NCBI GenBank assembly: GCA_946408025.1
Contig: CAMJQJ010000016.1
Coordinates: 1 to 32,195 of the forward strand
DNA length: 32,195 nt
From: an uncultured Faecalitalea sp.
Lineage (GTDB): Bacteria; Bacillota_I; Bacilli_A; Erysipelotrichales; Erysipelotrichaceae
Direction: 5' to 3'
Each line of letters begins with the position of its first letter. The first letter of the stretch is position 1. This document shows, piece by piece, positions 18,858 to 30,779 of this stretch. A model generated the notes under the pieces. The model did not search any database. It was not told the origin of the DNA and was given only the letters and a program-made list of their open reading frames with translations. The translations under genes and the position numbers were made by a program.

Positions 18858-19619
18858 TTAGATAAACAACTCATTCTCTTTTCTATCTGAACAAACCTTT
18901 TTTAACATCGCACTTGCCGCTTTATATTTAACAATATGGATGCTTCTAGCCAAATAAGGACATACAGATATACAACGCATGCAAGAAATGCATTTATCCT
19001 TATCTATTTTTGATGGATCATTAAAATCAATGGCCTGCATAGGGCATTCGGTAGCACAAACTTTGCAATTTACACATTTCTTTGTGGGTTTTGGAACCAA
19101 ACCACTAAGCTTTGATACCTTATATGGTCGATTCCCCGGAATTTGTGGTTTTGACATATCTTTCTCTTCTAGCTTTTTCTTAATTGCTTTTGTAAAAGCT
19201 ATCAATTGGTCTTTATCTTGTGTATCTGGTCTTCCACTTGCGTATTGTCTAACAATAGAATGTTCAGCAATTGCAGAAATCGCCGCAACCGTTTTGAACC
19301 CAGCTTTATCTGCCAAATCTTCTAACTCTGCTAAAGTATCCTCATAAGCTCGATTTCCATATACACATACTAAAATTGCCCTAGCTCCATTCCCTTGAAT
19401 CAAAGAAAGTCTTTCAGACACCACAGATGGGACCCTTCCACCATATGACGGAACGGAAATAACCGCAACATCATCTTTCGTTAGTTGGTTTTTATCTAGT
19501 GTAGAATTTCTTTTTAACATGTTTAGTGTAATAACTTTCTTATTTAATTCATTAGCAACGATTTTCGCTACTTTTTCAGTTCCACCAGTGGGACTGAAAA
19601 CAATTTCAAATATCTTCAT
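18858..19619 (-). CDS. EFR1-type flavodoxin/ferredoxin fusion protein
   Basis: 253 residues. The N-terminal flavodoxin-like domain has FSPTGGTEKVA (8-18), an FMN phosphate loop, and SVPSYGGRVP (55-64). The C-terminus has two [4Fe-4S] ferredoxin motifs, CVNCKVCATECP (Cys182, 185, 188, 192) and CISCMRCISVCP (Cys210, 213, 216, 220). Such EFR1 proteins move low-potential electrons in anaerobes; the partner is unknown. AAGGAG precedes the ATG at 19619. No adjacent gene shows a clear functional tie. Confidence 0.87.
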   Translation of the reverse strand: MKIFEIVFSPTGGTEKVAKIVANELNKKVITLNMLKRNSTLDKNQLTKDDVAVISVPSYGGRVPSVVSERLSLIQGNGARAILVCVYGNRAYEDTLAELEDLADKAGFKTVAAISAIAEHSIVRQYASGRPDTQDKDQLIAFTKAIKKKLEEKDMSKPQIPGNRPYKVSKLSGLVPKPTKKCVNCKVCATECPMQAIDFNDPSKIDKDKCISCMRCISVCPYLARSIHIVKYKAASAMLKKVCSDRKENELFI

Positions 19620-19694: not shown

Positions 19695-19732
19695 AAAAAA
19701 GGTATTGGCTATTTTTATAGCTAATACCTTTT
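19695..19732 (-). terminator. Terminator of MMPL/coiled-coil operon
   Basis: AAAAGGTATTAGCT / AGCCAATACCTTTTTT stem with a G-T pair and a short A/T loop, followed by T-run on the minus strand. Confidence 0.85.
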
Positions 19733-19744
19733 AGTTTTAAATTT

Positions 19745-22057
19745 TTAATTAGAACTTGTTACTTTAAAAATATATTGGGTAGAATTAGTAGCCTCTTTAG
19801 GGGCTCCACTAAAAGAAGAATACTTTTTATTCAGGGAATCAATCTGCTGAGCTAATTCATTTAGCTTGTTAAGTTCTTCTGATGCAATAGCTAGAGAGCC
19901 TAGACCCTCTTCATTAAATGTTGACTGACCATTTACAAGCTGGTCTGCCCCATCTTCTAATTCATCAAATGCCTTTTGCAAGCTTATCAATCCACTGCTC
20001 ATTTCAGAAAAATTATTCTTTTGGGCTTCCAGTTGTTCTGCCCCTTGATCTAACGCTTTTGACCCTTCTAATAATTCACTGTTATAGCTAACTAAAGTCT
20101 CACTACCTTCATTCAATTGATCGATCCCTTTCATGGATTCTTCATATAATACATTCAATCCTTGATCTAGCTGTTCACAACCTTGGCTCAAACTCTTTGA
20201 ACCAGCCTCTAATTGTTTTACGCTCTGTTGCAACGTTGAAATTATAGATTCAGGATCTTCCGGCAAACGATTTACGACAGTATTTAAATAGGCATCTAAT
20301 GTATTTAATGTTTCTTTTGACTGTATGATATCATTTTCTAACTGTGGTAAAACCTTATTACTTTCTGCTAAAATATCATTCATTTTAGAAATAGAATCTG
20401 ATAATGTTTTCAAAGATAGTTCTAATGATTGAGAATCAATAGGTTCTAAAGATGATAAGTTTGAATAATCTACCGTTAAAGTGGATGCTTCTATTTTTTC
20501 AGATTCAATTGCTTCAATTTGTTCTTGAAGCTTTGCCCTTAATGTTTCATCCTCTGTACTTTGCTGCACCTGCTGTAATGCCACAATGGTTTCATCTAGT
20601 TTTTCATTTGTTGTTTGAGCGGCTTGATTTAATGCATCATTTGCTCTTTGCATTTGATTGCGATATGAATCAATGATCTGATTGTTCTGACTTACCTTCT
20701 CGTTGTTCGTCTCAATTACTTTGTTATATTCTTGCACAGCATTAACAAATTCCGTTTTAACTTGATTCAAACTTTCCATTGAATTATTTATTAAATCTAT
20801 AGAGTTACTCATTTCAGTCATGATTGCTGAGTCTTTTTGTATCGTTTTTTCCATTTGATCCAGTTGTTGTTTGCTGTTCAAAATAATATTGCTTATTTCA
20901 TCTATTGTTTCAGGATCTAAGCTCGATATTTTTGAATTAATTTGTTCAATACCTGATTGTAGTTTTTGTGCACCTATATGTAAATTTTGAGTTCCATCAC
21001 CCACATCTTTTATTCCCTTAGGAACTGAATATAATTGTTTATTTCCTTTATCTATTGCTTCTACTCCAGAAGTGTATTCGTTCAGTGCATTGTATAAACT
21101 TGTTGTTCCTTCATGCATCAACACTGATGATTGAGCCAAATTTTCAATTTGTGGATAAGCTGAAGTTAATGGTTGCGATTCTTGATTCATTAAATGGATA
21201 CCTTCTTGTAAAGCCTTGGAACCATTTAATAATTGATCTCCTGCACTCATCAATGATTGGATCCCAGAAGTTACAGAAGAAGATTCAAATAAATTCTCAA
21301 AAGGTATTTCGTTGCTCATTCCTATAAAAAATGAATCCAGAGAAAAGTTTTCTACATCAGCTTCGATACTGGTTTCTTCGACAAGTGAAAATTTATCCGT
21401 CAATGTGTGCAAACCCATTTCATCTAAAGTTTGTTTTAATCCCGGCACACTTGCAAAAACATATGCTTCATGACTGCCATCATTAATAACTCTACCATTG
21501 TTTCCTTCTACATTTTTTACAGTTTCGTTGTCCAAGATCATACCTGCTGCACATAAAAAACTAGGATGAATTGTTACCGGTTGATTTTGTATCATAACAG
21601 TCTGTGAAACATTAGGTTTCATATTTATCTTTATAGATAAATGTCCAGTTTTTCCCTGCAATTTATCTGCTGTTATTTCTTTACCATCAAGATAATATTT
21701 GATTTCAAAATTTACAGGTAATTTTTTATGACAATCTCCTTGATAATAAATATCAGTATCTTCTGTATTCCACGTATACAAATTGCCATTCACTTTTGGC
21801 TCCACATTTGACTCCACATTTTCAACATTTGAAAGATCAAGAATTTCCTGAATATTCCTTAATCCATCTTCATCATGAAGCCAACTTGAAACAATGGTCT
21901 TTGAAACAGTACCATCTCCATCTAATAAAGTATATACAGTCTCTTTTTTTTCGGTTGGATTTTCATTTTGCTCCTCAGCGTATATCGGTGTACATAATGG
22001 AACTTGCATTGAAGCAATTAAGCAAATACTAATTACATTTTTAATTTTTCTATTCAT
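19745..22057 (-). CDS. Secreted coiled-coil protein with Leu-x-x-Gly heptad repeats, MMPL partner
   Basis: 770 residues. A signal peptide (hydrophobic 8-24, likely cleavage after IYA at 27) leads to a 230-residue beta-type domain opening with KETVYTLLDGDGTVSKTIVSSWL. Then come two sets of x-x-x-Leu-x-x-Gly heptads (about 266-290, 317-372, and again about 620-720, e.g. LEAGSKSLSQGCEQLDQG) around a long helical region rich in Gln, Asn and Ser. There is no C-terminal membrane helix or sortase motif, so it is probably released or held by its partner. The ATG lies eight bases inside the end of the MMPL gene, with GGAGG upstream. YhgE-like proteins carry similar heptads, but have membrane anchors. 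Confidence 0.78.
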   Translation of the reverse strand: MNRKIKNVISICLIASMQVPLCTPIYAEEQNENPTEKKETVYTLLDGDGTVSKTIVSSWLHDEDGLRNIQEILDLSNVENVESNVEPKVNGNLYTWNTEDTDIYYQGDCHKKLPVNFEIKYYLDGKEITADKLQGKTGHLSIKINMKPNVSQTVMIQNQPVTIHPSFLCAAGMILDNETVKNVEGNNGRVINDGSHEAYVFASVPGLKQTLDEMGLHTLTDKFSLVEETSIEADVENFSLDSFFIGMSNEIPFENLFESSSVTSGIQSLMSAGDQLLNGSKALQEGIHLMNQESQPLTSAYPQIENLAQSSVLMHEGTTSLYNALNEYTSGVEAIDKGNKQLYSVPKGIKDVGDGTQNLHIGAQKLQSGIEQINSKISSLDPETIDEISNIILNSKQQLDQMEKTIQKDSAIMTEMSNSIDLINNSMESLNQVKTEFVNAVQEYNKVIETNNEKVSQNNQIIDSYRNQMQRANDALNQAAQTTNEKLDETIVALQQVQQSTEDETLRAKLQEQIEAIESEKIEASTLTVDYSNLSSLEPIDSQSLELSLKTLSDSISKMNDILAESNKVLPQLENDIIQSKETLNTLDAYLNTVVNRLPEDPESIISTLQQSVKQLEAGSKSLSQGCEQLDQGLNVLYEESMKGIDQLNEGSETLVSYNSELLEGSKALDQGAEQLEAQKNNFSEMSSGLISLQKAFDELEDGADQLVNGQSTFNEEGLGSLAIASEELNKLNELAQQIDSLNKKYSSFSGAPKEATNSTQYIFKVTSSN

Positions 22058-24113
22058 AACGTGATCCTCCTTTTTTCATCTTTATTTTGTTTTCTAATAA
22101 CAACATACTAGGAAGCACAAATAAAATACTAATAACAGAAATGATTGCTCCACGTGCTAGAAGCGTACATAAACTAGAAATTAAATCCATTTGCGAAATA
22201 AAAGACACACCTATACATGCTGCAAAGAAAGATAATCCACTTGTAATGATAGACGGAGCACTTTTACCAATTGCCGTCCGAACAGCCTCATTCATGTTTC
22301 TATTTTTTCGATATTCCTCTTGCACTCGAGTTGTCAATAAAATCGCATAATCAACACAGGCACCTAATTGAATCGTTCCAATAACAATACCTGCAATAAA
22401 TGGTAAAGTTGTCTGGGTAAAAAATGGAATAGCCATGTTAACTGTTATCGCAAGTTCAATTGCACAAACCAGCATTATTGGTAAAGAAATAGAATGAAAA
22501 GTAATTAAGATAATAATAAATATTGCTAAAATAGAGATAATATTAACTACCTTAAAATCTTGATTAGCTGTTGTTATTAAATCTTTTGTCAATGCTCCTT
22601 CTCCTGTTATGAGAGCTTTTTTATCATATTTATGCAATATTTCATGTAATTGATCGATCTGTGTATTTTCATCTTCTGTAGCAGCGTGATAATCACTATT
22701 CGCAATAATTAATTGATATCCATTATTATTAAATATTTCTTTTATAGCTTCCGGTTCAAATGAAGTTGGGAATAATCCACCTGCAAATTCATCATACGAT
22801 AATACAGTCTCAATCCCTTTCACCTGTTTTATCTCTTTGACCAAAGATTTCATTTCTTTATGTTCTAGATCTTGACCAACCAATATAAAATGTGTGGTAT
22901 TCATATCAAAACGTTCTTTAAGTTCTTGTGTTCCTTGCATACTATAAAGAGAAGAAGGTAATGAAGCCGTCAAATCGTAATACTGCGAAACTTGAGTTTG
23001 AAAATAGCACATAGGCATAAAAATACAAACAGCCGCTATGCAGAGTGCTTTAGCATGAGCAACGATCCAAGAAGGAATTAGGTGCCATTCTTTGATCAAA
23101 ACACGATGTGTATATTTTTCGATCAAGCCATCAAAGCGCATCAACATGCTTGGCAATATAAAGATCGTGCATAATACACCCAACACGACGCCTTTAGCCA
23201 TGACAATACCGATATCTGATCCTAATTTTAGCTGCATAAAACATAAAGTTAAAAAACCTGCAATAGTAGTAACAGAACTAGAAGTAATAGATTTAAATGT
23301 TGCGACTATAGCTTTTTCCATTGCTTCTTCGTTTCCATTTTTTGACTTCACTTTTTCCTCCTGATAACGATGCAGTAAAAAAATTGAATAATCCATCGTT
23401 ACGGCTAATTGTAATATTGCTGCCAATGCTTGGGTAATATATGAAATCTCATGTAAGAAAAAATTGCTTCCAAAATTATAGATAATTGGAAAAGCTATTC
23501 CTATCATGAAAATAATCGGTGCTATAGTTGACTCCAACCCCAAATATAAAATCACCAAACTTAAGATGACCGCAATAACTATATAGCGCTTCATCTCTGT
23601 ATTTGCCAAATCTTTGGTATCTTCTGCTATTGCACTCATACCAGCTAAATAACAATTTTCTGGTGATATCTTTTTGATTCGGGAAATTGCATTCATTGTT
23701 TTTTGAGAAGCTGTATCTTCATCAAAGGTAATAATAAATATCGTTGCATCTTTATCATATAGTTGCTCTTGTACTTTATCCGGTAACATTTCTTTCGGAT
23801 ACGAAAGATCAATCAAATCATCTTTCCACAAAGCATCTTTAACACCATCAATTTTTTCTATCTCTTGTTTAAAAGATGAAACTTCTTTATCAGTTAATTT
23901 GTTTGTCACCATGATTCCAGTACTAGCCAAATTAAAATCCTCATCTAAGATTTTTTGTCCTTTCATAGATTCACAATCCGATGGCAGGTAAGAAAGAATA
24001 TCATAATTGATATTTGTATTCATGTAACCAATAATACTGGGAATCAAAAGAAGTACTGCAATCAACAATATCTTGTTTCTGTACTTCACTATAAACTTAG
24101 ATATCTTTTCCAT
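22050..24113 (-). CDS. MMPL/RND-family exporter
   Basis: 687-residue RND-type membrane transporter with two repeats. Each repeat has one helix, an outside domain, and a bundle of five more. The sixth-helix region carries the proton-relay-type TMDYSIFLLHRYQEE and, in the second half, GACVDYAILLTTRVQEEYR. It probably exports a lipid, peptide or toxic compound. The start at 24113 is chosen for AAAGGAG upstream; an ATG at 24188 lies upstream of the promoter and is excluded. It overlaps the secreted coiled-coil gene by 8 bases, so the two are made together. Divergent from a TetR regulator. Confidence 0.9.
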   Translation of the reverse strand: MEKISKFIVKYRNKILLIAVLLLIPSIIGYMNTNINYDILSYLPSDCESMKGQKILDEDFNLASTGIMVTNKLTDKEVSSFKQEIEKIDGVKDALWKDDLIDLSYPKEMLPDKVQEQLYDKDATIFIITFDEDTASQKTMNAISRIKKISPENCYLAGMSAIAEDTKDLANTEMKRYIVIAVILSLVILYLGLESTIAPIIFMIGIAFPIIYNFGSNFFLHEISYITQALAAILQLAVTMDYSIFLLHRYQEEKVKSKNGNEEAMEKAIVATFKSITSSSVTTIAGFLTLCFMQLKLGSDIGIVMAKGVVLGVLCTIFILPSMLMRFDGLIEKYTHRVLIKEWHLIPSWIVAHAKALCIAAVCIFMPMCYFQTQVSQYYDLTASLPSSLYSMQGTQELKERFDMNTTHFILVGQDLEHKEMKSLVKEIKQVKGIETVLSYDEFAGGLFPTSFEPEAIKEIFNNNGYQLIIANSDYHAATEDENTQIDQLHEILHKYDKKALITGEGALTKDLITTANQDFKVVNIISILAIFIIILITFHSISLPIMLVCAIELAITVNMAIPFFTQTTLPFIAGIVIGTIQLGACVDYAILLTTRVQEEYRKNRNMNEAVRTAIGKSAPSIITSGLSFFAACIGVSFISQMDLISSLCTLLARGAIISVISILFVLPSMLLLENKIKMKKGGSRYE

Positions 24114-24138
24114 ATTCAAACTCCTTTCAATAGAGACG

Positions 24139-24167
24139 AGTATATTCCTAAACTGACCATTAGTCAA
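24139..24167 (-). promoter_or_regulatory. MMPL operon promoter
   Basis: -35 TTGACT (24162-24167), 17-base spacer, -10 TATACT (24139-24144). A TGAC/GTCA palindrome covers the -35 and part of the spacer. Confidence 0.82.
24154..24166. promoter_or_regulatory. Putative TetR-family operator
   Basis: TGAC-N5-GTCA inverted repeat lying on the MMPL promoter. Arms are only four bases, so the site needs experiment, but its place fits repression by the divergent TetR protein. Confidence 0.5.
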
Positions 24168-24259
24168 TATTTTAATTATATTTTTCAATTAAGTTAATTT
24201 TTAAGGTGTTTTTATTGAACTATAAGTCATTTTTTATTAAAATATTTATGGTGATATCA

Positions 24260-24865
24260 ATGAAATCAAAAGTTATCGAAAACAAAAAAAATAAAAAAAA
24301 CGCCCTTTTGAAAAGCGCTTTTGAATTATTTTTAAAAAAAGATATTCATGAAGTAACGGTACAGGACATTACAAAAAACGCAAATGTTGCCAAAGGGACA
24401 TTTTATTTATACTTTCAAGATAAATATCAAATTCGTGATGTCTTAATCCAAACAGAAGCTAAAAAATTATTTGAAAGTGCTCAAGAGGAATTAGAAAAGA
24501 ATGATATTCAAGATTTCGAGGACTCCGTAATTTTTATTATTAATCAAGTTTTATTAAAGCTTGAAAATAATCCTATCATATTAAAGTTTATTAAGAAAAA
24601 TCTCTCTTGGGGTATTTTTCACGAACGATTACAGTCAAGTATTGAAGAAGATTCTTTAAATATGATCGCAAAATTTAGTGCATCAGCTATCAAGAACCAT
24701 TATGTAATTGATCGCCCTGATGTTGTTCTTAACATTATTATTGAAGCTGCTGGAAGTACATGCTATAACTCGATCCTTTATAACCAGCCACTACCAATTG
24801 AAAAGTTAAAACCATATTTATATAAAGCTATTCGCGCTATATTATCTAGCTATAAATATTCGTAG
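24260..24865 (+). CDS. TetR-family transcriptional regulator
   Basis: 201 residues. The N-terminal helix-turn-helix is intact: ALLKSAFELFLKKDIHEVTVQDITKNANVAKGTFYLYFQDKYQIRDVLI, with the T-x-x-x-F-Y-x-Y-F-x-D-K signature. The C-terminal ligand domain is divergent, as usual. It probably represses the divergent exporter operon, with the exported compound as inducer (inference). I use the ATG at 24260, eight bases after GGTGAT; a GTG at 24206 has no ribosome site. Very lysine- and asparagine-rich start. Confidence 0.88.
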   Translation: MKSKVIENKKNKKNALLKSAFELFLKKDIHEVTVQDITKNANVAKGTFYLYFQDKYQIRDVLIQTEAKKLFESAQEELEKNDIQDFEDSVIFIINQVLLKLENNPIILKFIKKNLSWGIFHERLQSSIEEDSLNMIAKFSASAIKNHYVIDRPDVVLNIIIEAAGSTCYNSILYNQPLPIEKLKPYLYKAIRAILSSYKYS

Positions 24866-24997: not shown

Positions 24998-25306
24998 ATG
25001 GAAAAAGATTACTCTAAAGATGCAAGAATCTTCAAAGCACTTTGTGATGAAAAAAGACTTTGTATCATCAGTCTATTAAAAGAGGGAGAAAAATGTGCCT
25101 GCGAATTAATCGAAAAAATGGGGATTGGACAATCTGCTTTATCCTATCACATGAAAATACTATGTGATTCAGAAATTGTAACAAGTAAACAAGATGGAAA
25201 GTGGACCCATTACAGGCTCAGTCAATCTGGAAGTGACAACGCATTAAAAAGATTAGCTGAAATAACTGCACCAACATTAGATAATCGTACAAAATATCAT
25301 AAATAA
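24998..25306 (+). CDS. arsR: ArsR-family metalloregulator
   Basis: 102-residue winged-helix repressor. The metal-site motif EKCACELIEK (Cys33, Cys35) corresponds to the ELCVCDL arsenite site of classical ArsR; Cys16 and Cys22 are additional thiols. The recognition helix is QSALSYHMKILCDSEIV and the wing KQDGKWTHYRL. It lies first in the arsenic unit and is expected to bind the ATCAAA-N4-TTTGAT boxes and release on As(III). A GTGAGG site lies upstream. Confidence 0.92.
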   Translation: MEKDYSKDARIFKALCDEKRLCIISLLKEGEKCACELIEKMGIGQSALSYHMKILCDSEIVTSKQDGKWTHYRLSQSGSDNALKRLAEITAPTLDNRTKYHK

Positions 25307-25327
25307 GGTCATCTTAAGATGACTTTT
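25305..25327 (+). terminator. Hairpin after arsR
   Basis: AAGGTCATCTT / AAGATGACTTT, an eleven-base inverted repeat with no spacer and one G-T pair, beginning at the arsR stop and followed by few Ts. It probably attenuates read-through into arsP, leaving regulator made in excess. Confidence 0.55.
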
Positions 25328-25342
25328 ATAAAAACCTAATAC

Positions 25343-25358
25343 ATCAATTTTTTTTGAT
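25343..25358. promoter_or_regulatory. ArsR-type operator box 3
   Basis: ATCAAT-N4-TTTGAT (one arm mismatch to the other boxes), between the arsR hairpin and the arsP ribosome site. Suggests an internal, separately repressed promoter, but no clear -35/-10 pair is visible. Confidence 0.55.
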
Positions 25359-25378
25359 ATGAGGAAAGGAGGACTTTT

Positions 25379-26395
25379 TTGAAAATCATAGAATCAATAT
25401 TTATATTTATACAAGATCAAATACTTGGAATGAAATGGTTGAATTACTTAATAGAACAGTTTTTAACTATGTTAGGATTTGATATTACTACTCGTTTTGG
25501 TGGCAGCATTCAGTTTTTCCTTTATGATGTCATAAAAATTACGATTCTGCTTTGTACTTTGATTTTTCTCATCTCATATATACAAAGTTATTTTCCCCCA
25601 GAGCGAAGCAAAAAAATATTAGGTAAGTTTCATGGAATCAAAGCCAATATTGTATCTGCCTTACTCGGAACCGTCACACCATTTTGCTCTTGTTCATCCA
25701 TACCACTTTTTATCGGATTTACTAGTGCTGGTTTACCAATAGGTGTTACTTTTTCTTTTCTTATTTCTTCTCCAATGGTTGATTTAGGAAGTCTAGTTTT
25801 GTTAATGAGTGTTTTTGGCGTAAAAGTGGCTATCGCCTATGTTATCATTGGACTAATCATAGCTGTTTTAGGTGGAACATTAATAGAAAAATTACACATG
25901 GATCAATATGTAGAAGATTTCATCAAAAATGCAAGCAGTGTAGAAATTGACTCCCCAAATCTTACTAGAAAAGATAGAATAGAGTTTGCCAAAGAACAAG
26001 TATCTGATACATTTAAAAAAGTATTTCCATACATTCTAATTGGAGTTGGTATCGGAGCTTTCATTCATAATTGGATTCCAGAGGATTGGATCAAAGCTAT
26101 TTTAGGAAGCAACAATCCATTTGGTGTAATCATCGCAACACTGATAGGTGTGCCTATGTATGCTGACATATTTGGTACAATTCCTGTTGCAGAAGCACTT
26201 TTAGTAAAAGGAGCCCAGTTAGGCACGATCCTTTCCTTTATGATGGCTGTTACAACATTAAGCCTGCCATCAATGATCATGTTAAAAAAAGCGGTGAAGC
26301 CTAAATTGCTTGCATTATTTATTTCTATTTGCACAATAGGAATCATTATCGTAGGGTATATTTTTAATGTTTTCCATATATTTTTAATTTCATAG
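25379..26395 (+). CDS. arsP: ArsP-like permease (organoarsenical/arsenite efflux candidate)
   Basis: 338-residue membrane protein of the DUF318 permease family, eight or more helices. The key motif TPFCSCSSIPLF (Cys103, Cys105) is that of ArsP, which exports trivalent organoarsenicals in Campylobacter; ArsR context supports an arsenic role. A second repeat appears around TIPVAEALL near 260. The gene starts with TTG at 25379, six bases after AGGAGG; the first ATG is 17 codons in and lacks a site. A cytosolic loop (180-225) is charged. Substrate could be inorganic or methylated arsenite. Confidence 0.85.
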   Translation: MKIIESIFIFIQDQILGMKWLNYLIEQFLTMLGFDITTRFGGSIQFFLYDVIKITILLCTLIFLISYIQSYFPPERSKKILGKFHGIKANIVSALLGTVTPFCSCSSIPLFIGFTSAGLPIGVTFSFLISSPMVDLGSLVLLMSVFGVKVAIAYVIIGLIIAVLGGTLIEKLHMDQYVEDFIKNASSVEIDSPNLTRKDRIEFAKEQVSDTFKKVFPYILIGVGIGAFIHNWIPEDWIKAILGSNNPFGVIIATLIGVPMYADIFGTIPVAEALLVKGAQLGTILSFMMAVTTLSLPSMIMLKKAVKPKLLALFISICTIGIIIVGYIFNVFHIFLIS

Positions 26396-26407
26396 GAGGT
26401 ATTTAAA

Positions 26408-26749
26408 ATGAAACTATTTGCCAAAAAAGAAGAAAAGAAAACATGCTGTTGCGCTGAAAAATGTACATCTGAAGCTATGCAAAAAGCAGAAAGCGTAAAG
26501 AAGGATGATGGAATTAAGATCTTAGGATCAGGATGCGCAAAATGTATTGCCTTAGAAAATGCGACACAAAAAGCTGTTTCAGAATTAGGATTTGATTTGA
26601 AAATTGAACATATTACAGATTTTTCTCAAATAGCCAGTTATGGTGTAATGTCTACTCCAGCCTTGGTTTTTAAAGGGAAAGTCGTATCATATGGAAAAGT
26701 ATTATCTGTTGAAGAAATTAAAAACATCTTAAAACAGGCACAGAATTAA
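26408..26749 (+). CDS. Cys-rich thioredoxin-like protein of arsenic operon
   Basis: 113 residues. The C-terminal 75 form a small thioredoxin-like domain with the CxxC motif GSGCAKC (Cys43, Cys46) and the cis-proline loop MSTPALV, as in the redox-active disulfide protein 2 family. A 30-residue N-terminal tail contains TCCCAEKC (Cys13-15, Cys19), lysine-rich, that could bind As(III) or a metal. Genes of this kind often sit beside ArsP-like permeases. It may recycle ArsC or hand arsenite to the permease (inference). AGGAGG is ten bases upstream. Confidence 0.82.
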   Translation: MKLFAKKEEKKTCCCAEKCTSEAMQKAESVKKDDGIKILGSGCAKCIALENATQKAVSELGFDLKIEHITDFSQIASYGVMSTPALVFKGKVVSYGKVLSVEEIKNILKQAQN

Positions 26750-26786
26750 TTCATGAATTACAATAATAGTGAAAGGTGAATTTATT

Positions 26787-27200
26787 ATGAAAAAGAATCT
26801 TCCAAAAGTTGCTTTTATTTGTGTTCATAATTCTTGCCGCAGCCAAATTGCAGAAGCATTAGGAAAAGCGCTGGCTTCTGATGTCTTTGAAAGCTATTCA
26901 GCAGGAACTGAAACAAAACCACAAATCAACCAAGATGCAGTGCGATTGATGAATCAAAAATATTGTATTGATATGGAAAAGACACAATATTCCAAGCTTT
27001 TGTCAGATATTCCATCTGTAGATATAGTTATTACAATGGGTTGTAATGTAGATTGCCCATACCTTCCTTGCAGATACAGAGAAGATTGGGGCTTGCAAGA
27101 TCCAACAGGTAAAAGTGATGAAGAATTTATAAAAACAATAGAAACAATTCACAACAAGATTTTAGATTTAAAATATAGAATTCAAGAAAAGTTAGTTTGA
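26787..27200 (+). CDS. arsC: Arsenate reductase, thioredoxin-coupled
   Basis: 137-residue low-molecular-weight phosphatase-fold enzyme. P-loop CVHNSCRS with nucleophile Cys12 and Arg18; redox cysteines downstream in MGCNVDCPYLPC (Cys86, Cys90, Cys95), which take the place of the Cys82/Cys89 pair of staphylococcal ArsC; WGLQDPTGKSDEEF is the family C-terminal motif. It reduces arsenate to arsenite for efflux. The start at 26787 is preferred to a GTG at 26769 because AAAGGTG lies between them. It is the last gene of the unit. Confidence 0.92.
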   Translation: MKKNLPKVAFICVHNSCRSQIAEALGKALASDVFESYSAGTETKPQINQDAVRLMNQKYCIDMEKTQYSKLLSDIPSVDIVITMGCNVDCPYLPCRYREDWGLQDPTGKSDEEFIKTIETIHNKILDLKYRIQEKLV

Positions 27201-27448: not shown

Positions 27449-29872
27449 ATGAAACAGTTTTTAGAATTTGAACCACATACAAATGATATCGATGAAGAAC
27501 GGTTAACCCGTTTGCAAAGAAAAATGTCCAATCGAGTTGCCTCCATATGCAGTCAACGAGCAATGTTGTATACAGAAAGCTTTAAAAAGACCACAGGAGA
27601 ACCTTACATTATCCGAAAGGCAAAAGCTTTTGCACATACTTTAGAAAATATGAGTATTTTTATTGAAGAAGATAGTTTAATATTTGGAAATCAAGCAAGT
27701 TCTAATTTTGCTGCTCCAATTTTCCCAGAATACTCTATTGACTGGATAATTGATGAATTAGATGGACGCAATGGATCCATTCCTTTTGATAAGAGAAATG
27801 GTGATGTCTTTCAATGTTCCAAAAAAGTAAAAAACGATTTATATTCTATTGCAGACTATTGGCATGGACATACCCATGAAGATGAGGTACAAAGAAATTT
27901 AACAGATGAGATTCGCCAAGCTGCAAAACAAGGTGTTCTGCATCTTGGAGGTATATCTATGTCTGGAGACGGGCATATTGTACCAGACTATCCAGCGCTT
28001 TTAAAACATGGATTTCGCTGGTATATTCATGAAGCCAAAGAGAAATTAAAAGACAATATTTTGTCCAAAGAACAAATAGACTTTTATACCGCGGTTATCA
28101 TTTCTTTAGAAGGTGCATTAACTTTCTTTAAGCGATATAGTTGCTTGTTAAAAGAAGCCGAACAAAAAGAAAAAGATCCTAAAAGAAAACAAGAATATGC
28201 TCAAATGGCCAAAATGGCAGAAAATATGATGGAAGGACCTGCTCATTCTTTCTGGGAAGGATGTGAAGTTGCTTACATGGTACACATACTTCAAATGATC
28301 GAATCAAATGGTCATTCCTTCTGTTATGGAAGATTTGATCAATATATGTGGGATCTTTATCAAAAAGACATTATTAATAAAATAATCTCCAAAGAAAAAG
28401 CATTGGAAATCATCACACACATGTTTATCATGAACTCTTCAAATAATAAAGTTCGTCCTTATGGGCATACACGTTTTTCTCAAGGCTATCCACTTTATTC
28501 CAATTTGGTTGTTGGAGGATATACACCAGAAGGAAAAGATGGAACAAATGAACTTTCATACCTATGCATAGAGGCCATGAATTTGACTGCTTTGGCAGAG
28601 CCAAACTTCTCAATGCGATACAATAAGAACACTCCTGATTCATTGATCCGATTGGCTGCAAAATTGATACGTACTGGTTGTGGTATGCCTTCTATGTTTA
28701 ATGATGAAATTGCAGTGAAAGGATTGGTTGATTTAGGCATTCCAAAAAAAGATGCTTTAGATTATTGTCCTATCGGATGTGTAGAAACGGGAGTTCCCGG
28801 AAAATATGGGCATCGCGCTACAGGGATGACTTATGTAAACTGGGGGAAAGTTTTCGAAATTGTATTATTTCACGGGAAAGATCCTAAGACTGGAATTCAA
28901 TTATTTCATTTGCAAGAAAATGATTATGCAACCTATGATGAACTTTGGCAAGCTTGGAAAACTGCTTTAAAATTTTATTCGGATATGGCAGTTGAATCCG
29001 ACAACATTTGTGATGCTTCATTAGAAATCTATGACGCAGATCCATTTGCATCTTGTTTCATTGACAACAGCATGAAATTAGGCAAAACATTAAAAGCTGG
29101 CGGATGTAAATACGACGTAATTTCTCAGTCTAATATTGGACCAGTTATCGTTGGAAATAGCTTAGCTGCTATCAAAAAACTAATTTTTAAAGAGAAGAAA
29201 ATTACTTGGAAACAATTGATGGATGCCATAAAGGATAACTGGGAAAGCGCAGAATCTATGTATATTCGAAAGCTTGTCCTGAATGTTCCAAAATTTGGAA
29301 ACGATGAGGATGAAGTGGATGATTTAGTAAAAGATGTCTTTAACTCTTATCTGGAGTTATTACCTCATTATAAAACATTGCGTACTGGAAAAGGTCCGGA
29401 AATATCATGTTATACCATGTCTACAAGCAATATTACTTCTTACGTTCCAAATGGGTTTGATGTTGGGGCTACACCAGATGGCCGCTTTGCTGGTTCTCCA
29501 TTAAACGAAGGTTGCTCTCCAACACAATCAACCGATACACATGGACCAACTGCAGTTATAAATTCTGTTTCAAAGCTTCCAAATGACAAAGTAGCTGCTG
29601 GTCAATTATTAAATATGCGTTTTGCACCAGGAGCTTTAGCAGGAGATGAAAATTTAGATAAATTTGTCGCGTTTTTAAAAGCCAGTCTTTTAAAAGGAAT
29701 CTATCACAATCAATTTAATGTTTTATCTAGTGAAACACTAAGAGAGGCGCAAAAAGATCCGAATAATTATAGAGATTTGATTGTAAGAGTTGCTGGTTAT
29801 TGTGCTCAATTTGTATCTTTGATGCCTGAAGCGCAGGAAGCAATTATTGCACGTACAGAGAATGAGTTATGA
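27449..29872 (+). CDS. Glycyl radical enzyme, YbiW/PflD-like
   Basis: 807-residue glycyl radical enzyme. The catalytic loop is DYCPIGCVETGV (Cys444, Glu446); the radical site is RVAGY (Gly783) near the C-terminus. It is not pyruvate formate-lyase: PFL has adjacent Cys-Cys, while GCVE marks the dehydratase/lyase branch. By memory it resembles E. coli YbiW in GNQASxxxAAPIFPEY, LQMIESNGHS, and GCxETxxxGKxGxRxTGM. YbiW and PflD have been reported to open 1,5-anhydro-hexitol-6-phosphates; assigning that substrate here is inference. RVAGYCAQF has Cys785 where YbiW and PflD have Ser. AAAGG lies seven bases upstream of the ATG. Confidence 0.9.
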   Translation: MKQFLEFEPHTNDIDEERLTRLQRKMSNRVASICSQRAMLYTESFKKTTGEPYIIRKAKAFAHTLENMSIFIEEDSLIFGNQASSNFAAPIFPEYSIDWIIDELDGRNGSIPFDKRNGDVFQCSKKVKNDLYSIADYWHGHTHEDEVQRNLTDEIRQAAKQGVLHLGGISMSGDGHIVPDYPALLKHGFRWYIHEAKEKLKDNILSKEQIDFYTAVIISLEGALTFFKRYSCLLKEAEQKEKDPKRKQEYAQMAKMAENMMEGPAHSFWEGCEVAYMVHILQMIESNGHSFCYGRFDQYMWDLYQKDIINKIISKEKALEIITHMFIMNSSNNKVRPYGHTRFSQGYPLYSNLVVGGYTPEGKDGTNELSYLCIEAMNLTALAEPNFSMRYNKNTPDSLIRLAAKLIRTGCGMPSMFNDEIAVKGLVDLGIPKKDALDYCPIGCVETGVPGKYGHRATGMTYVNWGKVFEIVLFHGKDPKTGIQLFHLQENDYATYDELWQAWKTALKFYSDMAVESDNICDASLEIYDADPFASCFIDNSMKLGKTLKAGGCKYDVISQSNIGPVIVGNSLAAIKKLIFKEKKITWKQLMDAIKDNWESAESMYIRKLVLNVPKFGNDEDEVDDLVKDVFNSYLELLPHYKTLRTGKGPEISCYTMSTSNITSYVPNGFDVGATPDGRFAGSPLNEGCSPTQSTDTHGPTAVINSVSKLPNDKVAAGQLLNMRFAPGALAGDENLDKFVAFLKASLLKGIYHNQFNVLSSETLREAQKDPNNYRDLIVRVAGYCAQFVSLMPEAQEAIIARTENEL

Positions 29873-29873
29873 T

Positions 29874-30779
29874 ATGAATAAAGGATTAATTTCTACACTA
29901 CAGCACTATTCGACCAAAGATGGTCCAGGAATTCGCACCACTGTATTCTTTGTTGGATGTAATCTACGTTGCACATGGTGTGCAAACCCTGAATTGATCG
30001 AGCCAACAAAAAAACTACTGTACTATAAGCAGCACTGTATTCGTTGTGGGACTTGTTCCAAACTTGAACCTCATGCAATCCAGATTTTTGAAGATGGTTG
30101 CCATATTGACCGCACCAAATTGCACAATATTCAAAAAATTGTAGAGTGTTGCCCTAAAAATGCTTATGAAATCAAAGGAAGAGAAATCTCTGCAAAAGAC
30201 TTAGTAAATCTACTTTTAAGAGATAAAACTTTTTATGAAGTATCAAACGGGGGTGTTACTTTTTCAGGCGGTGATCCAATGCTGCAAGCTGATTTTGTAA
30301 AAGAAGCAGCACAACTTTTACATCAAAATGGCATTCATGTTGCCTTAGACACTGCAGGCAATGTTCAATGGTCAATTCTAAAAAATCTTCTACAAGATAT
30401 TGATTTGATCCTATTTGATATAAAGGCAATTGATCCTATATATCATAAGAAATGCACAGAGGTAACTAATGAAAAAATCATAGAAAATGTCAAAAAGATT
30501 GCACAATTGAAAAAAGATTTATGGATTCGTCTTGTTATTGTGCCAGGATGGAACGATGATTTAGAAGATATTGAAAAACGATTTCAATTGATCAATTCAC
30601 TTGGAGATTGTGTTAAACGAGTTGATATTCTAAAATATCATAATCTTGGTTCCAGCAAATATGAGCAATTAGGACTGAAATACTCTATTTCTAAAGATAC
30701 AGCTTGTTCTGATACTTTAGTTCAACAGATCAAAACGATTGCTCACTCCTATAATGTAAAGATTAATGTTGATAATTAA
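29874..30779 (+). CDS. Glycyl radical enzyme activase (radical SAM), YbiY-like
   Basis: 301-residue radical SAM protein that installs the glycyl radical on the preceding enzyme. The SAM cluster is GCNLRCTWC (Cys29, Cys33, Cys36) after DGPGIRTTVF, and FSGGDPML is the GGE-type SAM contact. The inserted ferredoxin region is reduced: CIRCGTC (Cys55, 58, 61) then CCP (Cys92, 93), a layout like YbiY, with at most one full extra cluster. I start at 29874, one base after the stop of the enzyme gene; an ATG at 29862 would overlap by 11 bases, also plausible. Confidence 0.9.
   Translation: MNKGLISTLQHYSTKDGPGIRTTVFFVGCNLRCTWCANPELIEPTKKLLYYKQHCIRCGTCSKLEPHAIQIFEDGCHIDRTKLHNIQKIVECCPKNAYEIKGREISAKDLVNLLLRDKTFYEVSNGGVTFSGGDPMLQADFVKEAAQLLHQNGIHVALDTAGNVQWSILKNLLQDIDLILFDIKAIDPIYHKKCTEVTNEKIIENVKKIAQLKKDLWIRLVIVPGWNDDLEDIEKRFQLINSLGDCVKRVDILKYHNLGSSKYEQLGLKYSISKDTACSDTLVQQIKTIAHSYNVKINVDN

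Follow-up and report, generated by a model that had tools for sequence, protein, structure and literature searches.

Does a secreted, heptad-rich protein encoded directly behind an MMPL pump gene act together with that pump, and if so, how? The question arises from a 32,195-nucleotide stretch of DNA from an uncultured Faecalitalea sp. (the window), in which the two genes lie on the reverse strand, opposite a divergent regulator gene. The features of the locus are as follows.

24260-24865, forward strand: divergent TetR-family regulator, 201 aa (PF00440, E 3.5e-12)
24154-24166, no strand assigned: palindromic candidate operator TGACCATTAGTCA (TGACYnnnRGTCA), from motif counts
24139-24167, reverse strand: putative pump promoter TTGACT-17-TATACT, read from the sequence; the candidate operator covers the -35 box
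22050-24113, reverse strand: MMPL/RND pump core, 687 aa, a minimal form without internal coiled coil, from profile and homologue fold
23388-23393, reverse strand: pump D241-Y242, a TM4-type Asp-Tyr pair
22347-22352, reverse strand: pump D588-Y589, the second Asp-Tyr pair (TM10)
22050-22057, reverse strand: overlap of pump stop and partner start, ATGAATAG, 8 bases
19745-22057, reverse strand: secreted partner, 770 aa, ATG at 22057
21974-22057, reverse strand: partner signal peptide, residues 1-28, predicted cleavage after IYA (...PIYA/EEQ)
21314-21952, reverse strand: beta-rich conserved base domain (ND), residues 36-248, AlphaFold2 pLDDT mostly 80-90
19823-21280, reverse strand: predicted helical hairpin with xxxLxxG heptads, residues 260-745, from AlphaFold2 and heptad analysis
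19760-19789, reverse strand: conserved C-terminal beta strand, residues 757-766, from AlphaFold2 and relatives
19697-19732, no strand assigned: hairpin 3' of the partner gene, resembling an intrinsic terminator

A minimal pump in a two-gene unit

The preliminary description of this DNA had proposed an RND-type pump core, and profile search bears this out: PF03176 MMPL repeats match two stretches of the protein (E 7.3e-60; score 203 bits, curated cut-off 20.5). We place the pump start at the ATG at 24113, which is preceded just 5' by the Shine-Dalgarno sequence GAAAGGAG. A longer frame from a TTG at 24188 (712 aa) was rejected because that codon lies upstream of the pump promoter and the ribosome site precedes 24113. 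Across 17 homologues D241 is invariant, Y242 is nearly invariant, and D588-Y589 is invariant; we take these to be the Asp-Tyr pairs expected to carry protons in MmpL/RND pumps. The 687-aa sequence contains two short extracytoplasmic domains and no coiled-coil insert. In structure comparison using the predicted fold of a homologue (the pump part of a natural fusion, described below), the best match was truncated MmpL4, which is MmpL4 with its coiled coil removed, followed by MmpL5 and MmpL3. The source genome, which is 79% complete, yielded a single pump and a single partner of this type.

The 8-base overlap between the pump gene and the gene for the 770-residue protein, as originally described, is exact at 22050-22057. 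The motif AAGGAGG sits within the last codons of the pump gene, ahead of the partner start, and translation of the two genes is likely coupled. Overlap, or a spacing of 20 nt or less, occurs in 102 of 128 pump-partner pairs. The two-gene unit is closed by the hairpin at 19697-19732. Past this, on the same strand, is a gene for an EFR1-family flavodoxin-ferredoxin protein (18858-19619).

A secreted partner with a base domain and a long hairpin

The sequence agrees with the earlier view of the partner as a secreted protein with a signal peptide and no anchor. The signal peptide is its sole hydrophobic stretch; the sequence lacks a further transmembrane segment, a lipobox, and a tail of the sortase type, and the xYA/E cleavage pattern is preserved in its relatives. 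The many Leu-x-x-Gly heptads previously noted also stand up to counting, with 13 LxxG motifs (versus 4.2 in shuffled sequences) and six LxxG pairs spaced exactly seven residues apart (versus 0.02). The partner scores 22.2 bits against TIGR03057, the xxxLxxG heptad repeat model, and so passes the curated cut-off of 18.6. Clusters of heptads occupy residues of about 275-370 and 615-710 of the hairpin.

Conservation across 11 relatives is highest in the base domain, where mean identity is 51%; it falls to 33-35% in both heptad arms and to 20% between them, in the presumed hairpin tip. The C-terminal strand could return to the base domain. Across the partner family, the arm beyond the base domain ranges from 257 to 1006 residues. 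In one locus (L064:10618-14055) the partner is 1145 aa long and contains 48 LxxG motifs, many of which follow one another every seven residues without a gap.

The base domain appears to belong to an unnamed family. A Pfam/NCBIfam search with 25 base domains gave no family match beyond stray weak ones, and a base-domain profile had no match among PDB sequences. The nearest PDB folds are adaptor mu-homology domains (target-normalised TM about 0.4-0.47), a remote likeness that gives no function; by this distant match the fold may be beta-sandwich-like. Profile searches with the partner identified no catalytic or wall-binding domain. Matches of the partner to PF21725 T7SS_signal, SMC, Mce, and MCP models were rejected as coil likeness because their scores are below curated cut-offs and they are located in the coil. 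Foldseek matches of the arms to SMC, Rad50, and chemoreceptors were likewise set aside as coil likeness.

Near-obligate pairing with an exporter

All 142 distinct partners recovered in our searches adjoin an exporter gene or are fused to one: 131 are beside an MMPL pump, three are fused to such a pump, and eight are beside an ABC-FtsX permease. Of those beside a pump, 128 were assigned automatically as lying behind it and the other three (L203, L217, and L223) by inspection. Half of the partners (72) came from searches that used the partner as query, so the pairing is not a product of query choice. Within the host family (58 genomes), a full-length pump of this type is present in 17, and each of these 17 genomes has the partner gene immediately behind it; the three that have a partner but no pump carry an ABC-FtsX permease before it.

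A second set, of named genomes, contained 80 loci recovered with the pump as query, from Lachnospiraceae, Clostridiaceae, Erysipelotrichaceae, Oscillospiraceae, Peptoniphilaceae, and others. The partner is directly downstream in 69 of the 77 scorable pumps; the remaining eight comprise four contig ends, one fusion, one upstream partner, one case of masked bases, and a single pump without a partner (L222). The two-part design is thus present throughout the Clostridia and Erysipelotrichia examined, including many gut lineages. The gene order is reversed, partner before pump, in two Oscillospiraceae (L217:3144-8109 and L203:3409-8046), and in each the partner has an amphipathic tail at its end. 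MMPL pumps also occur in another pairing (L074:5232-11028 and L076:7647-12666): behind the gene for a pump of about 815 aa lies one for a large protein (1118 aa in L074 and 807 aa in L076), which bears GLUG repeats, carries a membrane anchor at its C-terminus, and lacks the base domain.

Distances among the pumps track those among their partners (r 0.86, against at most 0.20 after permutation); shared species history enters into this figure, which lends weak support to a link. The preliminary description had proposed a survey of the pair across genomes, and here the pairing proves conserved. It had also allowed that the secreted protein might be independent of the pump. The universal adjacency, natural fusions, and occurrence of the base domain with a second exporter class instead support the interpretation of pump and partner as a conserved functional unit, and by these comparisons the partnership is well supported.

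Fusion, exchange between exporters, and membrane tethers

Three loci encode pump and partner as a single polypeptide: L168 (1636 aa), L255 (1280 aa), and L256 (1251 aa). L255 and L256, from two genera, cluster together in a quick, midpoint-rooted tree of partners, and starred branches force at least two fusion origins when L168 is counted. Separate genes look to be the common state and fusions to be derived. The exporter had been called split; the genes are indeed separate, but the word may mislead, given that the separate state is the common one.

In the same tree the eight partners linked to ABC exporters group together (support 99) within the pump-linked diversity, which is most simply explained by a single acquisition of the partner by an ABC-FtsX exporter. 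Their operons (L071, L072, L075, L138, L140, L143, L144, and L147) encode an ABC ATPase, an FtsX/MacB-like permease, and an ND lipoprotein, apparently an undescribed exporter type. They share with the pump loci the base domain, hairpin, and C-terminal strand encoded directly after the permease gene; they differ in being ATP-driven and in that the partner is a lipoprotein in eight of eight cases.

Pattern-based counts, which will include some errors, indicate a lipobox in all eight ABC-linked partners and in about 17 of the 128 pump-linked partners. By the same kind of count, about 20 of the 128 have an amphipathic ending such as FFDKIxxFFxxL, and 90, including the partner in the window, have neither. 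All of the tethers (lipobox, amphipathic tail, and fusion) are located at the base end of the protein; the lipobox and the amphipathic tail both fall there because the hairpin brings the two termini together at that end. The position of the tethers suggests that the base is at the membrane and the tip points outward.

We predicted the structure of residues 1-935 of L256, a natural pump-base fusion, with AlphaFold2. The alignment combined pump-only rows with 15 pump-base rows, 12 of which are neighbouring genes read in-frame through the pump stop. The domains were predicted well and the base was not placed confidently on the pump (pTM 0.67; linker pLDDT about 35). We read this model as neither for nor against docking; the gene pairing and the fusions support docking of the partner on the exporter.

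A candidate operator on the pump promoter

Control by TetR, part of the original description of the locus, gains support from the candidate operator. The motif TGACYnnnRGTCA was found upstream of 73 of 137 pumps (0.1 expected from shuffled sequences). Where the TetR gene is divergent and close, 60 of 63 loci have the motif; the counts are three of 11 where it is divergent and distant, one of 26 where it is codirectional, and seven of 35 where no TetR gene was recognised. Because the motif tracks close divergent TetR loci, we assign it to that TetR subfamily. The TetR gene is kept as a neighbour in relatives, and a repressor bound over the -35 box would block the pump promoter. Taken at the level of comparison between loci, TetR control of the pair is well supported.

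The genome contains one other exact site (G000:C13:15424), within a coding frame that reads as nicotinate phosphoribosyltransferase. We take that site to be a chance occurrence rather than a second operator, and the regulator therefore looks to act locally.

Directly behind the TetR gene (24998-27200) are genes for an ArsR/SmtB-type regulator, a permease related to SaoE/SO_0444 transporters (below cut-off), a 113-aa thioredoxin-like protein, and an ArsC-like protein, a putative metal or arsenic handling cluster. Further along (27449-30779) are a glycyl radical enzyme and its activase. The enzyme passes the broad TIGR01774 model and no substrate-specific equivalog cut-off (choline, hydroxyproline, sulfopropanediol, and others).

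Comparison with known systems

The pair resembles MmpL4, MmpL5, and MmpL10, members of a pump class with which mycobacteria export lipids, in having an MMPL core and a coiled coil that would be directed outward. In the MmpL5 trimer, coiled coils build a tube through which the drug is proposed to cross the wall (PMC12501195), and oligomerisation of MmpL10 depends on its coiled coil (PMC12183618). In these mycobacterial proteins, however, the coil is built into the pump chain (about 255 residues in MmpL10), whereas the hairpin here is roughly double that length (about 485 residues) and belongs to a second protein that also has a base domain. No gene for an MmpS-like protein was seen next to the pair, and the MmpS profile did not match the partner, which at 770 aa is unlike MmpS, a small protein with a single TM segment and an Ig-like domain.

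The FarE/FarR system of Staphylococcus aureus, a single MMPL/RND pump with a divergent TetR regulator (PMC10019231), resembles the locus in gene arrangement alone. FarE exports linoleic acid, and no coiled-coil partner is described for it in the papers found. The heptad itself (X-X-X-Leu-X-X-Gly) is shared with YhgE/Pip proteins (TIGR03057), where it also lies outside the membrane. Proteins of the YhgE type (L073 and L077) differ in carrying ABC2-type membrane segments in the same chain and in lacking the base domain; the ABC2-type profile PF12698 did not match the partner.

Membrane fusion protein (MFP) adaptors are similar in that a secreted or anchored partner bears a helical hairpin and one family serves both RND and MacB-type ABC pumps. 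Such adaptors are known in Gram-positive bacteria: Spr0693 assembles into a tube of six subunits on a MacB-like pump (PMC5768738). Spr0693 belongs to the membrane fusion family, and our partner differs by profile. The HlyD/MFP lipoyl and beta-barrel profiles matched neither the partner (at E 1) nor the 25 base domains (at 0.01); the base domain is unrelated by sequence, and the heptads are of the xxxLxxG type. The analogy with adaptors, already drawn in the preliminary description, is strengthened because one partner family is common to RND and MacB/FtsX-type pumps, as Gram-negative adaptors are.

How the pair may work

With somewhat more confidence than doubt, we favor a model in which an MmpL4/5-like pump receives its wall-crossing coiled coil in trans from a docking partner, under TetR repression. 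The pump would be a proton-driven MmpL4/5-like core that lacks the coiled-coil insert of mycobacterial MmpL4, MmpL5, and MmpL10. The beta base of the partner would rest on the pump at the membrane's outer face, with the long heptad hairpin extending from it across the wall zone. The hairpin, probably as an oligomer matching that of the pump, would guide or shield an amphiphilic substrate on its way from the membrane. TetR, on the operator at the -35 box, would keep both genes off until a ligand appears, likely the substrate itself or a related amphiphile. That the partner does the job of the MmpL coil in trans is the simplest reading by analogy, because the insert-less core pump almost always travels with the hairpin partner; the further step to a conduit, as against a rod or a scoop, is tentative. 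Counting against the trans coil are the glycine-rich heptads, unlike the MmpL coiled coil, the only moderate prediction of the arms by AlphaFold2 (pTM 0.41), and the lack of a tether on the partner in the window.

The same base domain works with ABC-FtsX permeases, and the wide range of arm length on a conserved base would also suit a strut or actuator. The partner would then dock on the pump without forming a conduit, and the hairpin would be a rod that positions the pump in the wall or relays conformational change to another envelope component, as in FtsEX with the coiled-coil protein PcsB. FtsEX-PcsB is a known pairing of FtsX with an extracellular protein (PMC5768738). The partner of the pump is without a catalytic or wall-binding domain. 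PcsB-type partners, on the other hand, bear hydrolase domains, and we consider the strut unlikely.

Most pump-linked partners are untethered and the base may be beta-sandwich-like, features that would fit a chaperone-like acceptor that binds a lipid-like substrate at the pump exit and carries or sequesters it. We regard such a scoop as quite improbable, since lipoprotein, amphipathic-tail, and fused forms hold the partner at the membrane in many lineages and the extreme length of the hairpin is left unexplained. An independent secreted protein or pump cargo that is merely co-transcribed, as might be suggested by the standard Sec signal peptide (the pump is not needed for export of the partner) and by the fusion fold, where fixed docking was not seen, is highly improbable given near-universal pairing across >100 lineages, natural fusions, and transfer of the module to an unrelated exporter.

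We found no earlier description of such a partner in the open-access literature searched. What sets the pair apart is an MMPL pump whose coiled coil would come from a second protein, one with a base domain that has no family name and that also occurs with FtsX exporters. How greasy substrates pass a thick wall in bacteria without an outer membrane is poorly known, and the pair bears on that question; the candidate operator offers a ready handle on its inducer. More broadly, and with rather more doubt than conviction, we suggest that proteins with this base domain are a family of exporter adaptors not described before, which act in trans in monoderms, are unrelated to MFPs, and form a helical conduit across the wall. 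If so, adaptors would have been invented twice independently, the second time for both proton-driven MMPL pumps and ATP-driven FtsX exporters.
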